64,000 nt of DNA, from positions 186,001-250,000 of the forward strand of contig NZ_NHSN01000025.1 of NCBI RefSeq assembly GCF_016653405.1. The letters run 5' to 3'. The DNA comes from Halorhodospira halophila. GTDB taxonomy: Bacteria > Pseudomonadota > Gammaproteobacteria > Nitrococcales > Halorhodospiraceae. The translations under genes and the position numbers were made by a program. Shown here piece after piece: positions 6,436-52,719 of the stretch. The notes beneath the pieces were generated by a model, which saw only the letters and a program-made list of their open reading frames with translations, was not told the origin of the DNA and did not search any database. How positions within the stretch are numbered: the stretch's first letter is position 1; every line of letters begins with the position of its first letter.

Positions 6436-6579
6436 GTTCAGCGCTCCTCGTCTTGCGACGGGCGCTGGCGACTCAAACTGGGGGAGCGACGACGGCTGCA
6501 GCGCCGCCGCCGGACGGATGGGATCACCGGCAAGCTCACCCCCAGGCGCGCCGCCCGCACGCCGTTTCGTGGGTTGCTG

Positions 6580-6765
6580 TGGGCCGGTCTCCGGGCTCGT
6601 GGGGGGACGCTGGATGCGTCGTTGCGGATCGCCTTCCCGCGAGGGCCGCCGGGTGACGGCTGTCTCGCAGTGGCCTGTGATCCGCAGGCCCCACCTACCG
6701 TTGCGGGGGCAGCGCCGGCTTCACTGCTGGGTGCAGCTGGACCGGACTTCCCGTTTAACCCCAGG
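6580..6765 (-). promoter_or_regulatory. Cobalamin (AdoCbl) riboswitch upstream of the TonB receptor
   Basis: Read on the minus strand, this stretch has the conserved blocks of the B12 element in order. A 5' arm with TTAAACGGGAAGTCCGGT comes first, then GCTGCCCCCGCAACGGTA (the B12-box region near 6700-6720), GCCACTG (complement of 6668-6674), GGGAAGGC (complement of 6631-6638) and the 3' closing strand GAGCCCGGAGACCGGCC (complement of 6582-6598). About 145 bases separate it from the receptor start, enough for an expression platform. I did not resolve whether that platform is a terminator or a ribosome-site sequestor. The 6436-6579 and 6766-6915 stretches hold no gene that I can support. Confidence 0.93.
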
Positions 6766-6915
6766 CGATCCTGTTGCGCCTGCGGGCACCCACATCGAAG
6801 TCGCGGAGTTTAGGCAGGCTGATCGGCCGGTTGCAAATCGACGAGCCGGACAGTTCGTCGCAGGGGGCGCGATCCCCGTGCCCACCCCCGGGGGATGCAC
6901 CGACGGAACGCGCAC

Positions 6916-9029: not shown

Positions 9030-10310
9030 CTACCGGCTCAGGAGCCCGGCGACGACCTCGGGCGCCGAGGGAAAATACGCGTGGAAGTAGGTCGCCGTCA
9101 GGCTGCCGACCCGGTAGACGCCCTCGGCCGGGCTGCCGCTGCGCCGCACGGTTTGCTCCGTGGGCTCCAGGGCCGTCTCCAGCCGCGAGTGGTGGAAGGT
9201 GTGGCCGCGCAGCTCGCCCTCCGGGCGGGACAGGCTCTGCAGGCCGATGCCCGTCAGCCGCCCGGCCATCTCGGCACGCCCCGCGAGGAGGCCGAGCATC
9301 GGGTGCTCGACGCCCTCGCCATCGACCAGCGACTCGGCGCAGTACATCAGACCGCCGCACTCGGCGAGGGTCGGCCGGCCCGCCGCGTGGTGCTCGCCGA
9401 TGGCGGCCCGCATCCCGTCGTTGGCGGCCAGGGTGGCGGCGTACAGCTCCGGGTAGCCGCCGGGCAGCCAGAGGGCATCGCAGGGGGGCAGCGTCGCATC
9501 GCGCAGCGGCGAGAAGGGCACCACCTCGGCCCCCATCGCCTCCAGCAACTCGAGGTTGGCCCGGTAAGCAAAGGCAAAGGCGGCATCCCGGGCCACCGCG
9601 ATCCGCTGCCCATGCAGCCGCCGGGGCGGAGCCGGCGGCGCCTCGCCGTGCAGGGCGACCGGGGGCGGCAGGCGGTCCACGCCGGCCTCGGCAAGCACCG
9701 CTGCGGCCGCATCCAGGCGTGCATCCAGATCGGCCACCTCGCCGGCCTGGACCAGTCCGAGGTGGCGGTCGGGTACGTGCAGGGCCTCGTCGCGGGGCAC
9801 CGCCCCGAGCCATTCCACCCCCTCGGGCAGGCTGCCGGCGAGCATGCGCGCATGCCCCGGACTCCCCACCCGGTTGGCGATGGCCCCGATCACCCGCACG
9901 TCATCGCGGTGGCGGGCCAGTCCACTGACCACGGCCCCGAAGGTCTCGGCCATGGCCCGGGCGTCGATCACCACCGCCACCGGCAGGCCGGCCAGGGCGG
10001 CCAGATCGGCACTGGAGGGGTCGCCATCGAAGAGCCCCATGGACCCCTCGACGAGGATCAGGTCGGCCTCGCGCGCGGCCTCGGCCAGGCGCCAGCGGCA
10101 CTCGGCCTCGCCGGTCATCCACGGGTGGAGCTGGTAGACCGGCGCCCCGCTGGCCCGCTCCTGGACCATCGGATCCAGGTAATCCGGGCCGTGCTTGAAC
10201 ACCCGCACCCGGCGCCCGGCATTGCGGTGCAGCCGGGCGAGCGCCGCGGTGATCATCGACTTGCCCTGGCCGGAGCCCGGGGCGGCGATCAGCAGCGCGG
10301 GGACCGTCAT
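9030..10310 (-). CDS. cobB: Cobyrinic acid a,c-diamide synthase
   Basis: A 426-residue amidotransferase with a P-loop (APGSGQGKSMI, residues 9-19), the segment FKHGPDYLDP, and a C-terminal glutaminase domain with LAECGGLMYC carrying the nucleophilic Cys. It amidates the a and c side chains of cobyrinic or hydrogenobyrinic acid. A longer in-frame ATG exists (10463), but that extension lies inside the stress-protein gene and lacks family similarity. The ATG at 10310 gives the canonical N-terminus MTVPALLIAAPGSGQGKS. It starts 11 bases after the stop of the stress-protein gene, so the SulP-stress protein-cobBOQ genes may share a transcript. A paralogue specialised for siroheme, DsrN, is at 61001-62413. 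Confidence 0.94.
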   Translation of the reverse strand: MTVPALLIAAPGSGQGKSMITAALARLHRNAGRRVRVFKHGPDYLDPMVQERASGAPVYQLHPWMTGEAECRWRLAEAAREADLILVEGSMGLFDGDPSSADLAALAGLPVAVVIDARAMAETFGAVVSGLARHRDDVRVIGAIANRVGSPGHARMLAGSLPEGVEWLGAVPRDEALHVPDRHLGLVQAGEVADLDARLDAAAAVLAEAGVDRLPPPVALHGEAPPAPPRRLHGQRIAVARDAAFAFAYRANLELLEAMGAEVVPFSPLRDATLPPCDALWLPGGYPELYAATLAANDGMRAAIGEHHAAGRPTLAECGGLMYCAESLVDGEGVEHPMLGLLAGRAEMAGRLTGIGLQSLSRPEGELRGHTFHHSRLETALEPTEQTVRRSGSPAEGVYRVGSLTATYFHAYFPSAPEVVAGLLSR

Positions 10311-10321
10311 TGCCCGAAACC

Positions 10322-11173
10322 CTAGCGCAGGATGAGCAGCGGCGTGCTCGAGCGCATGATCATGTGGGTGGTCGTGCTGCCGACAAAGAACCGGCGCAAC
10401 CGCGAGTGGCCGTAGGCGCCCATGGCCATCAGGTGGATATCCTGCTCCTTGCGGTAGTTGCACACCGTCTCGTCGATCCCGCCGGGACGGACCTCGGCGT
10501 GGACCGTGAAACCGGCCGCCTCCAGCTGCTGACGCGGGGCGAGCAACCGCTCGCGGTTGACCTCGGTATCGGCGTCAACCAGGAGCAGGTGCGCCTCGAG
10601 CCCCTGGAGCAGCGGGCTCTCGGTGATGCGATCGACCACCTTCTGGGCCGCCGGGCTGCCGTCGTAAGCGATCAGGAAGCGTTCCGGCTCGCGGAAGGCC
10701 AGCGGCGCCACCAGGATCGGCTTCTGCACCCGGCGGATGGTGCTCTCCAGGTGGCTGCCGATATGCTGCTCTTCGGCGTCGCCGTCCTCGCCCTGCTTGC
10801 CGAGCACCAGCAGGCGCATCTCCTCCTGCGCCTTGTCCAGCACATCGGTCACCTCGCCGTTGCGCAGCAGCCGCCCGGGGTTCTCGATGCCCTGTTCCCG
10901 GGCGCGGCTCATGGCATCCTCGAGGATGGCGCGCGCCTGCTCGCGTGCGAGCCTACCCCGCTGCTCCTCAAGCTGCACCATCTCGTCGAGGAGGTTTTCC
11001 CGCACCCCGAAGGTCAGATTGCCGCTGAGATCCGCCTCGCGCTCACCGTGCGGGTTGCGAAAGGCGTGCAGGAACGTCAACGGCGCCTGCAGGCGCCGTG
11101 CGGCCCAGACCGCGTGATCGCAGACGGAGGGCGACGAGCGGGATCCGTCGACGCTGGCGATGATTTTGCTCAT
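10322..11173 (-). CDS. Tandem-domain universal stress protein
   Basis: A 283-residue cytoplasmic protein made of two USP (Rossmann-like) domains, about residues 1-150 and 155-283. The second domain has the ATP-binding signature in MGAYGHSRLRRFFVGSTT. The ATG is directly after the SulP transporter gene, 22 bases away, so the two are probably co-transcribed. USPs next to transporters are common, often as ATP-dependent regulators of transport or of stress survival. The partner here is inferred from the neighbourhood only. Confidence 0.9.
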   Translation of the reverse strand: MSKIIASVDGSRSSPSVCDHAVWAARRLQAPLTFLHAFRNPHGEREADLSGNLTFGVRENLLDEMVQLEEQRGRLAREQARAILEDAMSRAREQGIENPGRLLRNGEVTDVLDKAQEEMRLLVLGKQGEDGDAEEQHIGSHLESTIRRVQKPILVAPLAFREPERFLIAYDGSPAAQKVVDRITESPLLQGLEAHLLLVDADTEVNRERLLAPRQQLEAAGFTVHAEVRPGGIDETVCNYRKEQDIHLMAMGAYGHSRLRRFFVGSTTTHMIMRSSTPLLILR

Positions 11174-26965: not shown

Positions 26966-27113
26966 ATTTTCCTCCCTTCCGCGCGCCACCCGCACGCGCG
27001 TCGGTTTGGTTCCACCGCAGGGAGGAGGACAGAAATGGGGGGAGGGATCGCGCTTGCGCCCGGCAAACGGAGGCCTGCCCCGGTCTGCCGCCTCCCGCGG
27101 CACCTGGGTTCCC

Positions 27114-27300
27114 TCAGGCCGGTCTCCGGGCTCGTGGGTGGGGTCGGTGACCCCGGGCGAATCGCCTTCCCGCAGGGCCCGCCGCCGAACGACGGCGCCT
27201 TGCAGTGGCTTTGTGATCCGCCCCCCACCTACCGTTGCGGGGGCAGCGCCGGACTCGCCGCTAGGTGCGGCTGAACCGGTCTTCCCGTTTCACCCCGCCG
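27114..27300 (-). promoter_or_regulatory. Cobalamin (AdoCbl) riboswitch upstream of btuB
   Basis: The minus strand contains the B12-element blocks in order: GTGAAACGGGAAGACCGGT at the 5' side (complement of about 27277-27295), GCTGCCCCCGCAACGGTAGG, GCCACTG (complement of 27203-27209), GGGAAGGC (complement of 27164-27171) and the closing GAGCCCGGAGACCGGCCT (complement of 27116-27133). About 150 bases separate it from the btuB start. It should repress the whole btuB-adenosyltransferase-btuFCD operon when coenzyme B12 is abundant. The parts of the 26966-27392 gap outside the aptamer hold nothing that I can assign. Confidence 0.95.
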
Positions 27301-27392
27301 CTGCTCGCGCGGGGCACCTGAGGAGCTTGGTACTCTAGGCAGCCTGGGCCCCGCCGTCAAACCGCCGCACCCCGACGTCCAAAGGAGACGTG

Positions 27393-48878: not shown

Positions 48879-49451
48879 TTAGGCCCCGGCCGGCTCATCC
48901 GCACCCACCCCGAGATTGCCCAACAGCCCACCGATGACCGGGCGCAAATCGGCGACCATCTCGGGCCCTTCGACCTCGGTCAGCCGCCCGTGCAACCACA
49001 GATCCCGCGGCCGGTCGCTGGCATCGCAGCCGCGCTGACCCAGCAGGTTGTAGGCCGGGAACCCCGGATCCTCACCGGCATAGGTGATGCGTGCATACTC
49101 GTTGAGGCGCTCGCCGGCGCGGGCCAGGAACGCCCGCCCCGCATCGGTGTCGCTGCCGTTGTCGCGGATGCCGTCGGCCAGGCGCTTCACCATGGCCTCG
49201 ACCAGCCGGCGGCGCGACTCGTCGGCCAGCCCCCGCAGCCAGGCCAGCCGGTCGGTGTACTGGACGGCGAAGAGCAGCAGCTCCTCCACCAGGGCCAGAT
49301 GCCCCCCGGTGCGATCGGTGATCGGGCCGTCCTCGGAGAGGGTGCGCACCGCCGCGGTGGCGACACGCCAGGCACGGATCGACGCCGCGGCGCCAACCTC
49401 CTCAGGCTGCTGCTCGTCGCGGGGGCGGAACCAGTGGGTCTTGGTACGCAT
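48879..49451 (-). CDS. Helical protein of unknown function paired with the Cas6-like gene
   Basis: A 190-residue soluble protein, predicted almost all helical: RAWRVATAAVRTLSEDG, LVEELLLFAVQYTDRLAWLR, RRLVEAMVKRLADGIRDNG, FLARAGERLNEYARITYAGED and a final segment PAYNLLGQRGCDASDRP. There is no signal peptide and no motif that I recognise. The ATG at 49451 is two bases from the stop of the upstream Cas6-like gene, so the two are surely co-expressed. Their shared position opposite dsrA suggests a role linked to sulfur metabolism or to the RNA-binding partner. A TorD-type chaperone for SoeA is a weak alternative based only on size and helix content. Confidence 0.7.
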   Translation of the reverse strand: MRTKTHWFRPRDEQQPEEVGAAASIRAWRVATAAVRTLSEDGPITDRTGGHLALVEELLLFAVQYTDRLAWLRGLADESRRRLVEAMVKRLADGIRDNGSDTDAGRAFLARAGERLNEYARITYAGEDPGFPAYNLLGQRGCDASDRPRDLWLHGRLTEVEGPEMVADLRPVIGGLLGNLGVGADEPAGA

Positions 49452-49453
49452 GA

Positions 49454-50110
49454 TCAGATCACTGCCTTGTGGGGAATGAACAGCCCGCAGCCCCAACAGG
49501 GGCCGCGACCCAGCCCCCGGGCCTGAAGCCTGCGCCCGGCCTGGGGGCCCATGCCGTCGACCAGCAGACTGCGTGTGGCCACGGGCCCATCCGCGGTCAC
49601 CAAGGTCTCCTGGCGACCGCAGAGCAGGCGCTTGGGGTGGACACCCATGCCTGCGAGCTCCTCGCGCGCCGCCGCCAGCAGTGCAGTCTCCTCCACTGCG
49701 CCGCGCTGTGGCCCCAGAACCCGATGGGCGTAGACGGTGGCCGCGGCGGGGATCTCAAAGCTCTGGGCCTGCCCCAGCGCAAGGACCTCGCCGGCGACAT
49801 CCAGTGTCGCCCCGGTCAGCCCGGCCACGGCCCCGGCGTGCTCGCGGGGCACGCGCAGCACCAGGCGGCTGCGCCGCGGCAAGAGGATCGGTTGATCCGG
49901 CGTGCGCCACCAACCGTGGCCACTGGCCGGCAGGTGGGTGATGCGCACCCCCACCTCGTCGGGATCGAGCTGCGGCACCAGGCGCGGGGCCAGGGCCTCC
50001 GCCAGGGGCGCGGCGTAGGCCTCGGGCAGTGCGCGACCGCTCAGCGCGAAGGCCACGTCCACCGCCTCAGCGGTCTCCTGTGCCTGCTCCTGCTCGGTTT
50101 CCCAGTACAC
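49454..50110 (-). CDS. Orphan Cas6/Cmx6-like protein divergent from the dsr operon
   Basis: A 218-residue protein that resembles the Cas6 endoribonuclease of type I-MYXAN systems (Cmx6). It has AVDVAFALSGRALPEAYAAP at the start, LPRRSRLVLRVPREHAG, LDVAGEVLALGQAQ, ELAGMGVHPKRLLCGRQETL (each quoted in part) and the C-terminal glycine-rich loop LQARGLGRGPCWGCGLFIPH. No repeat array or other cas gene is in the window. An upstream GTG (50155) would lie before the predicted transcription start, while the GTG at 50110 has GGAGG five bases before it. The predicted -10 (complement of 50141-50146) and the operator at 50170-50185 put it under the same control as dsr. The Cas6 link is from remembered family patterns. 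Confidence 0.62.
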   Translation of the reverse strand: MYWETEQEQAQETAEAVDVAFALSGRALPEAYAAPLAEALAPRLVPQLDPDEVGVRITHLPASGHGWWRTPDQPILLPRRSRLVLRVPREHAGAVAGLTGATLDVAGEVLALGQAQSFEIPAAATVYAHRVLGPQRGAVEETALLAAAREELAGMGVHPKRLLCGRQETLVTADGPVATRSLLVDGMGPQAGRRLQARGLGRGPCWGCGLFIPHKAVI

Positions 50111-50140
50111 CGCGGCCTCCACACCGTTCGGGCTGACCCG

Positions 50141-50247
50141 AGTACAACCGCGCACCGAGCAGCGCTCTATATCCCGAAAGGGATACGCCGTATTCCTATT
50201 CAGCTCCTTGAATGGATATTCCCTCGCCCCGGCCCTCTGGCTAGCTT
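50141..50247. promoter_or_regulatory. Divergent predicted sulfur-regulon promoter of dsrA and the Cas6-like gene
   Basis: Two 7-2-7 sites, TATCCCG-AA-AGGGATA (50170-50185) and GCTCCTT-GA-ATGGATA (50203-50218), are 33 bases apart. The second is centred 31.5 bases before TAGCTT (50242-50247), the dsrA -10. The first is centred 31.5 bases before TGTACT on the minus strand (50146 to 50141), the -10 of the Cas6-like gene. Each site thus sits near -43 of one promoter. A further inverted repeat, ATTCA/TGAAT, lies around 50197-50213. The dsrA leader would be about 70 bases. Confidence 0.65.
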
Positions 50248-51630: not shown

Positions 51631-52719
51631 ATGGCTGAAGCAAGCACCACCAACCAACCGCGGTCCCCCGTCGAGAGCGGGACCCCGGATCCGTTCCCGC
51701 ACATGCACGCCACGCTGCGCCGCAACTTCGGGCTGTGGCGCCACCACGACCGGCCGCAGCCGGGCGTGCTCCACCACGTCTCGGAGACCGGCGAGGAGGT
51801 CTGGACGGTGCGCGCCGGCACCCAGCGGCAGATGGACCTGGCCACGGTGCGTAAGCTCTGCGACATCGCCGACGAATACGCCGACGGCTACCTGCGCTTC
51901 ACCATCCGCTCCAACGCCGAGATCACCGTCGACCGCGAAGAGAAGGTCCAGCCGCTGATCGACGCCCTACGCGGCGCCGGTTTCCCGGTGGGCGGCACCG
52001 GCCCGTCGGTGACCATGATCTCGCACACCCAGGGCTGGCTGCACTGCGACATCCCCGCCACCGACGCCTCCGGCGTGGTCAAGGCGCTCATGGACGAACT
52101 GCACCAGGAGTTCGTCCGCGAGGAGATGCCCAACCGCGTGCACATCACCACCTCGTGCTGCCAGATCAACTGCGGCGGCCAGGGCGATATCGCCATCAAC
52201 ATCCAGCACACCAAGCCGCCGAAGATCCAGCACGACCTGGTCGGACAGGTCTGCGAGCGCCCCTCGGTGGTGGCCCGCTGCCCGGTGGCCGCCATCCGCC
52301 CGGCGGTGGTCGACGGCAAACCCTCGCTGGAGGTGGACGAGAGCAAGTGCGTCGCCTGCGGCGCCTGCTACCCGCCCTGCCCGCCGATGCAGATCAACGA
52401 CCCGGAGCACTCGCGCCTGGCTATCTGGGTGGGCGGCAACCACTCCAACGCCCGCGGCGTGCCGACGTTCCACAAGCTGGTGGTGGCCGGCCTGCCCAAC
52501 AACCCGCCGCGCTGGCCCGAGGTCGCCGAGCACGTGAAGAAGATCCTCTACACCTACCGCGACAACGCTCGGGACTACGAACGCGTCGGCGAGTGGATCG
52601 AGCGCATTGGCTGGAAGCGCTTCTTCGAGCTCACCGGCCTGCCCTTCACCAAGCACCACATCGAGAACTGGCAGGGCTCGCGGCACAAGCTCAACGCCTC
52701 GGCCCATCTGCGCTTCTAG
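51631..52719 (+). CDS. dsrB: Reverse dissimilatory sulfite reductase, beta subunit
   Basis: A 362-residue partner of DsrA, together forming the alpha2-beta2 enzyme. Cysteines for the cofactors are seen at C139, in SCCQINCGG (176-181), and in VARCPVAAIRP. The ferredoxin domain has KCVACGACYPPCPPM (240-250). GAGGAAGAGCGAATC precedes the ATG. The C-terminal RHKLNASAHLRF is the part near which DsrC docks in known structures. dsrE follows within 14 bases. Confidence 0.97.
   Translation: MAEASTTNQPRSPVESGTPDPFPHMHATLRRNFGLWRHHDRPQPGVLHHVSETGEEVWTVRAGTQRQMDLATVRKLCDIADEYADGYLRFTIRSNAEITVDREEKVQPLIDALRGAGFPVGGTGPSVTMISHTQGWLHCDIPATDASGVVKALMDELHQEFVREEMPNRVHITTSCCQINCGGQGDIAINIQHTKPPKIQHDLVGQVCERPSVVARCPVAAIRPAVVDGKPSLEVDESKCVACGACYPPCPPMQINDPEHSRLAIWVGGNHSNARGVPTFHKLVVAGLPNNPPRWPEVAEHVKKILYTYRDNARDYERVGEWIERIGWKRFFELTGLPFTKHHIENWQGSRHKLNASAHLRF

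Follow-up and report, generated by a model that had tools for sequence, protein, structure and literature searches.

The Dsr pathway is a main route for oxidising stored sulfur in many sulfur bacteria and animal symbionts. In the 64,000 nucleotides of Halorhodospira halophila DNA analysed here (the whole stretch is called the window below), a gene for a protein resembling Cas6, a CRISPR RNA-processing nuclease, lies back to back with dsrA. The locus raises the question of whether this gene belongs to CRISPR or to sulfur metabolism, and of what its product would act on. The features that bear on the question are as follows.

48879 to 49451, minus strand: gene of a 190-aa protein behind cas6 (family F12, in 49 of 117 cas6 loci)
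49454 to 50110, minus strand: Cas6-like gene, 218 aa, with the frame open up to 50155
50141 to 50146, minus strand: TGTACT, proposed −10 hexamer; present, promoter role unsupported
50170 to 50185, no strand assigned: palindrome TATCCC-GAAA-GGGATA, conserved upstream of dsrA, a single exact copy in the genome
50308 to 51582, plus strand: dsrA, divergent neighbour of cas6
51631 to 52719, plus strand: dsrB, preceded by a dsrA-dsrB gap without a strong hairpin

The Cas6-like gene likely starts with the GTG codon at 50110 and stops at 49454 on the minus strand. The N-terminus of its product, MYWETE, corresponds to the start MxWxE that is conserved in relatives. The initial annotation had described a 218-residue product encoded divergently from dsrA, and both points were borne out. 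It had also seen the pattern of a type I-MYXAN Cas6/Cmx6 protein and had proposed a check with Cas6 models. In this check Pfam family PF09559 (Cas6) matched the protein with 165.4 bits, far over its cut-off of 26.7, whereas NCBIfam cas6_cmx6 (TIGR02807) gave 81.8 to 82.1 bits and stayed below its own cut-off of 98.85. The TIGR02807 model matched all 30 relatives scanned (best E value 7.1e-41). A search of plasmids with the window protein gave no match at E 1e-5, no relative was confirmed in IMG/VR, and PHROGs gave no match.

A profile of 30 relatives matched the solved Cas6 structure 8fcj_B with an E value of 1.9e-23, and the other 15 hits had E values of at least 0.23. A structure model of the window protein was built from two sequences and is of modest quality (pLDDT 65, pTM 0.57). 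Its best matches were 8fcu_B and 8fcj_B, with Foldseek E values of 2.5e-11 and 6.6e-10 and Z of about 11 (11.1 for 8fcu_B), and most rows ranked 3 to 12 in the structure comparison named Cas6. The Cas6 fold, which consists of two ferredoxin-like domains and for which the initial annotation had suggested structure prediction, was thus found, on a model of modest confidence. The 8fcj and 8fcu entries hold the Cas6 of a type I-B CRISPR-associated transposon, the closest solved structure by both sequence profile and fold. According to the entry title this Cas6 belongs to a Cascade-transposon complex, whereas no transposon gene was among the recurrent families identified beside the dsr-linked gene. 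The RAMP/Cas6-related proteins 3qjj and 3ufc, which differ from the window protein in being archaeal, share the Cas6 fold over about half of the model (Z of 8.9 and 8.7, with 103 and 106 residues aligned). The Cas6 assignment holds because the PF09559 match, the profile match to a solved Cas6 and the best structure matches of the model agree, and the window gene is a real Cas6 homologue. It is under purifying selection, with a dN/dS of 0.20 between the window and genome G006 (0.07 for dsrA and the 190-aa gene) and of 0.20 to 0.33 in three pairs within the Halorhodospira family.

No array-like tandem repeats were found in the window, and a tblastn search with ten cyanobacterial I-MYXAN cas proteins had no hit in the 20-kb region that surrounds the window gene (L022). 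Both searches agree with the earlier statement that the window holds no CRISPR array or other cas gene. The initial annotation had not foreseen that the genome carries type I-G genes on contig C19 (G000; L211 and L215). There, cas3 scored 646 bits against a cut-off of 400, and a Cas5-Cas6 fusion (TIGR02165) scored 155 bits against a cut-off of 45. A frame between them resembles the I-G Cas7. No match to Cas1 was found in the assembly. The fusion has a Cas6 part by family name, but it belongs to another family than the window gene and sits with the type I-G cas3. The Cas6-like gene is an orphan within the window, yet not the only CRISPR-type gene of the genome.

The tblastn search also covered the loci of relatives. 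The ten I-MYXAN cas proteins matched nothing in 126 dsr-type loci, and several of them were found in each of the four control plasmids. TIGR02807 is described as encoded with cas3, cas8, cas7, cas5 or cas1, and the 126 dsr-type loci did not show this arrangement. Relatives annotated as Cas6/Cmx6 are carried by eight cyanobacterial plasmids, and cas3, cas8/cmx8, cas7, cas5 or cas1 adjoin the gene in six of the seven plasmid records examined; L172 lacks a cas neighbour in its record, yet is counted among the seven cyanobacterial proteins in the tree, the pI comparison and the alignment. In a tree that took 64 of 132 proteins, and whose bootstrap had not settled, CRISPR-linked and dsr-linked proteins stood on opposite sides of one branch (100/98). 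Four proteins of less than 200 residues (L021, L147, L167 and L168) had been dropped before the set of 132 was made. The proteins of the Halorhodospira family grouped in a single clade with a long stem. As the tree lacks an outgroup, it is silent on whether the CRISPR-linked or the dsr-linked proteins arose first.

The dsr-linked proteins resemble type I-MYXAN Cas6/Cmx6 in homology over the whole length, in a glycine-rich loop and, outside the Halorhodospira family, in the His of the LPxDH motif. They differ in the added motifs MxWxE, SGNGWxRP and PHK and in a nearly neutral charge. We did not file the window gene as a type I-MYXAN Cas6, because its score is below the cut-off, it has no cas neighbours, and it has Tyr in place of the putative catalytic His; it also lies on the separate branch. 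Of the earlier assignment the Cas6 homology stood, and the type I-MYXAN label did not.

The initial annotation had proposed a survey of dsr neighbourhoods in other sulfur oxidisers. PF09559, dsrA and Cas1 were sought in a first draw of 369 gammaproteobacterial genomes. PF09559 was found in 118 genomes, spanning 87 of the 272 genera. The dsrA gene was found in 120 (counted by hand from the search listing at E <1e-18, partial genes included), 112 of them over the family's own cut-off. Both genes occurred together in 112 genomes, PF09559 alone in 6, dsrA alone in 8 and neither in 243 (Fisher p 2e-76, a value that ignores shared ancestry). For PF09559 and Cas1 the corresponding counts were 50, 68, 85 and 166, which is near random (odds ratio 1.4, p 0.13).

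We examined 117 loci, consisting of the window and 116 fetched surroundings. G054 (L020), one of the 118 genomes, is not represented in them, and the handles L012 and L017 denote one contig. The fetched stretch contained dsrA in 83 loci, always divergent from cas6 and at a median distance of 1.6 kb. Linkage to dsr was thus found in many genera. Of the remaining 34 loci, 17 stop short, with no more than 5.5 kb of sequence upstream of cas6. The other 17 have room for dsrA, and in all of these roomy loci the genome carries dsrA elsewhere. L056, with no dsrA in its stretch, has dsrEFH beside cas6. Both PF09559 and dsrA are kept, with no Cas1 match, in five genomes that measure about 1 Mb (G092, G194, G306, G338 and G402).

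A second draw took 329 genomes across the phylum. PF09559 was found in four genomes, that of the window included, with dsrA divergent in all four, and it was absent from all 48 dsrA-bearing genomes outside Gammaproteobacteria. The fact that these 48 genomes do without it indicates that rDsr itself does not need the Cas6-like protein, and that the partnership belongs to Gammaproteobacteria and is not a requirement of the enzyme. Within the Halorhodospira family, the 190-residue gene lies directly behind cas6 in the window and in G006, G005, G001, G009, G011 and G003, but not in G008 and G002. In G002, which is of the same genus as the window, cas6 is about 13 kb from dsrA on the same contig. 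The PF09559 search gave no match in G004 and G007 of the window's genus, nor in G010 of its family.

These results make it almost certain that the window protein belongs to the Cas6 superfamily, in a lineage distinct from that of the CRISPR-linked Cas6 proteins sampled, and that it is a regular partner of the reverse-Dsr locus in Gammaproteobacteria. The role in sulfur metabolism that had been proposed for it is likely, since a Cas6-family protein outside CRISPR loci is tied to dsr in many genera. A literature search, whose coverage left out most subscription journals, returned no title or abstract start that names a dsr-linked Cas6.

The initial annotation had further placed the gene under the sulfur regulator of dsrA by way of a shared palindrome. 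TATCCCNNNNGGGATA was found once in the whole genome. Upstream of dsrA, CTATCCCNNNNGGGATAG was found within 2 mismatches in 45 of 81 genomes and never in shuffles, and within 3 mismatches in 59 of 81 genomes, with 1.2 in shuffles. The centre of the palindrome lies at a median of 233 bases before the dsrA start. The element at 50170 to 50185 is thus real and conserved, and it looks like a putative operator of a dsr regulator. A half-palindromic stretch, CCTATTCA-N6-TGAATGGATAT, follows it in the window and is altered in the other Halorhodospira-family sequences compared. We also weighed whether the palindrome might form an RNA hairpin to which Cas6 binds. This reading was dropped because the four-base loop of the palindrome varies freely and because of its distance from dsrA, as for a DNA operator.

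The palindrome travels with dsrA, not with cas6. Within 2.5 kb upstream of cas6 no palindrome was found in the 17 loci in which cas6 lies away from dsrA. L102 has one poor site 2.9 kb upstream of cas6, and two further sites, in L131 and L133, lie 1.2 kb downstream of where cas6 starts. The sole exact site of G002 is beside dsrA and not beside the distant cas6, and in G008 about 500 bases of inserted sequence separate cas6 from the palindrome. In the G008 insert (L014, about 10234 to 10915 in the cas6-dsrA stretch) a hairpin-like element is present twice, in similar form. G002, G008 and the 17 apart loci speak against the proposed control of cas6. In the window, where the palindrome lies between both genes, a local effect on both is possible, but with no site in the apart loci such control is not general. 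The hexamer TGTACT, proposed as a −10 element, does sit at 50146 to 50141. A promoter scan found no sigma-70-like site on either strand, and among the window, G006, G005 and G001 the hexamer occurs at the matching place only in the first two, and its presence may be due to chance.

The glycine-rich loop of Cas6 is present near the C-terminus of the window protein as GLGRGPCWGCG, and at least 97% of the proteins compared retain its four glycines. At residue 32, His was found in 116 of the 117 dsr-linked proteins that do not belong to the Halorhodospira family and in all six CRISPR-linked proteins (cyanobacterial, L172 left out of the residue counts). We take this His to be catalytic by analogy with the position of the catalytic His in Cas6 proteins generally. 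The residue is Tyr in the window protein and in 8 of 8 Halorhodospira-family proteins. In this family two further residues have turned to His, residue 65 in 6 of 8 proteins and residue 129 in 7 of 8, so that a rebuilt active site is conceivable from the alignment. Trp3, Trp67, Arg69, Glu141, Gly165 and Lys215 are conserved in dsr-linked proteins and were not seen in CRISPR-linked Cas6. The core charge is about neutral in dsr-linked proteins (median −1) and +6 in CRISPR-linked Cas6, and the whole-protein pI is 5.9 compared with 9.3 to 9.6. In the alignment and in the residue, charge and pI comparisons the row of L181 ran a few residues past the stop (X); the tree used the corrected frame.

What would such a protein act on? 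The reading that we favour, at a probability of roughly 40%, is that this Cas6-type protein acts on cellular RNA of the sulfur-oxidising state, with the dsr messenger as the nearest candidate. In most of these bacteria it would bind, and probably cut, RNA made during sulfur oxidation, and the outcome would be an adjusted amount of each Dsr protein. In the Halorhodospira family, with Tyr for the putative catalytic His, binding without cutting would be more likely, or another residue would be used. The near-neutral charge and the pI of 5.9 count against strong general RNA binding.

Seven dsr gaps were tested for RNA structure, and two of them were structured. The dsrA-dsrB gap had a mean z of −1.53, with 43% of 74 sequences below −2, and the dsrC-dsrM gap a mean z of −3.05, with 68% of 69 below −2; in the other five gaps 1 to 13% were below −2. 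Several of the stems between dsrC and dsrM have T runs behind them, as terminators do. Between cas6 and the DsrC paralogue 10% of the gaps were below −2, and a stretch of 120 bases at the end of that paralogue had a mean z of −1.90 with 47% of 92 below −2. Rfam models matched the window only at two cobalamin riboswitches on the minus strand (6565 to 6798 and 27100 to 27336, 72.3 and 72.2 bits).

The dsrA-dsrB hairpin was scored in gaps of 30 to 260 bases with a stem score of at least 20, which left 72 analysable loci of 119 outside the Halorhodospira family. It was present in 45 of these 72 genomes, where 2.3 were expected. A T-rich tail followed the stem in 5 of the 45, so most of these stems are not terminators. 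The hairpin was found in 0 of 7 analysable Halorhodospira-family genomes (8 given), in 3 of 5 gammaproteobacterial genomes with dsrA but no PF09559 (8 given) and in 4 of 19 genomes of other classes (20 given, out of 48). Fisher tests of 45/72 against these groups gave p values of 0.002, 1.0 and 0.002, respectively, a contrast confounded by the shorter dsrA-dsrB gaps of the comparison groups. The stems compared had no common sequence. The hairpin also occurs in genomes without the Cas6-like gene and is therefore not tied to it, and as a Cas6 substrate we regard it as only a lead. A further reading, which we hold to be rather unlikely, is that this CRISPR RNA-processing nuclease lineage serves energy metabolism in gammaproteobacterial sulfur oxidisers. 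It would cut or cap dsr mRNA at the dsrA-dsrB hairpin, or some other dsr RNA, and would act alongside a cysteine-less DsrC paralogue and a dioxygenase; the Halorhodospira family, with Tyr for the His, lacks this hairpin as well.

The companion genes bear on two further explanations. A TauD-type dioxygenase with conserved HxD and distal His occurs in 80 of the 117 cas6 loci, a DsrC paralogue lacking the penultimate cysteine in 93, and a family of proteins of about 235 residues in 43. The 190-aa neighbour had no Pfam or NCBIfam match, and its model is mostly helical and poor (pLDDT 45). In the 126 loci, 93 DsrC-like genes lie no more than 1.5 kb downstream of cas6, 90 of them on the cas6 strand, and 85 of the 93 have no Cys in their last 16 residues. 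The cysteine-less paralogue close behind cas6 (L053 to L168) often ends in RKGGY. The available text of three genome papers reports such genes and mentions no Cas6: four more DsrC-like genes in Allochromatium vinosum, several extra ones in Thiocapsa bogorovii (LT988_06690 numbered near dsrA) and three extra ones in Thiodictyon (THSYN_22565 numbered near the dsr cluster).

It is possible, and nearly as likely as RNA binding, that the Cas6 fold works independently of RNA, in the manner of a scaffold or a regulator, and that its binding partner is one of the Dsr proteins or else a companion, for instance the cysteine-less DsrC paralogue. The closeness of this paralogue to cas6, the near-neutral charge and the conserved residues not seen in CRISPR-linked Cas6 are consistent with such a role, as is the fact that the Halorhodospira family lost the His and kept the gene. 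A mere scaffold, on the other hand, would need neither the His that nearly all other dsr-linked proteins retain nor the near-universal glycine loop.

We consider it improbable that the protein is an RNA adaptor which, with the DsrC/TusE-like paralogue and DsrEFH, links the sulfur relay to tRNA thiolation. According to published work, DsrEFH is homologous to TusBCD, and TusE and DsrC form one family. This homology and the paralogue beside cas6 would fit the adaptor, but the lack of a C-terminal Cys in 85 of the 93 adjoining paralogues speaks against it. TusE carries sulfur, and such paralogues therefore should not carry it in the same way.

There is little probability that the gene is a passive neighbour of dsr with no function in sulfur metabolism. 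Genes can travel together, rDsr works without this gene outside the class, and eight of the 369 genomes carry dsrA without a PF09559 match. Against this, the gene is kept with dsrA even where the two lie apart, as in 17 of 17 roomy loci, and it is kept in the five genomes of about 1 Mb. Least probable of all is crRNA processing in trans for arrays elsewhere in the genome, for which the type I-G genes on another contig could be cited, as that set has its own Cas5-Cas6 fusion and the gene is not associated with Cas1, 63 of the 112 genomes with the gene and dsrA lacking a Cas1 match.

PADLOC Cas6 models matched 30 of 30 family members scanned, and sulfur oxidisers may therefore be credited with CRISPR genes that they lack. 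A Cas6-family gene that lies beside dsr and is kept even at a genome size of about 1 Mb is a testable part of the Dsr pathway. The dsr-linked Cas6 is a likely case of CRISPR machinery outside immunity, and it suggests that part of an immune toolkit is used in sulfur metabolism.
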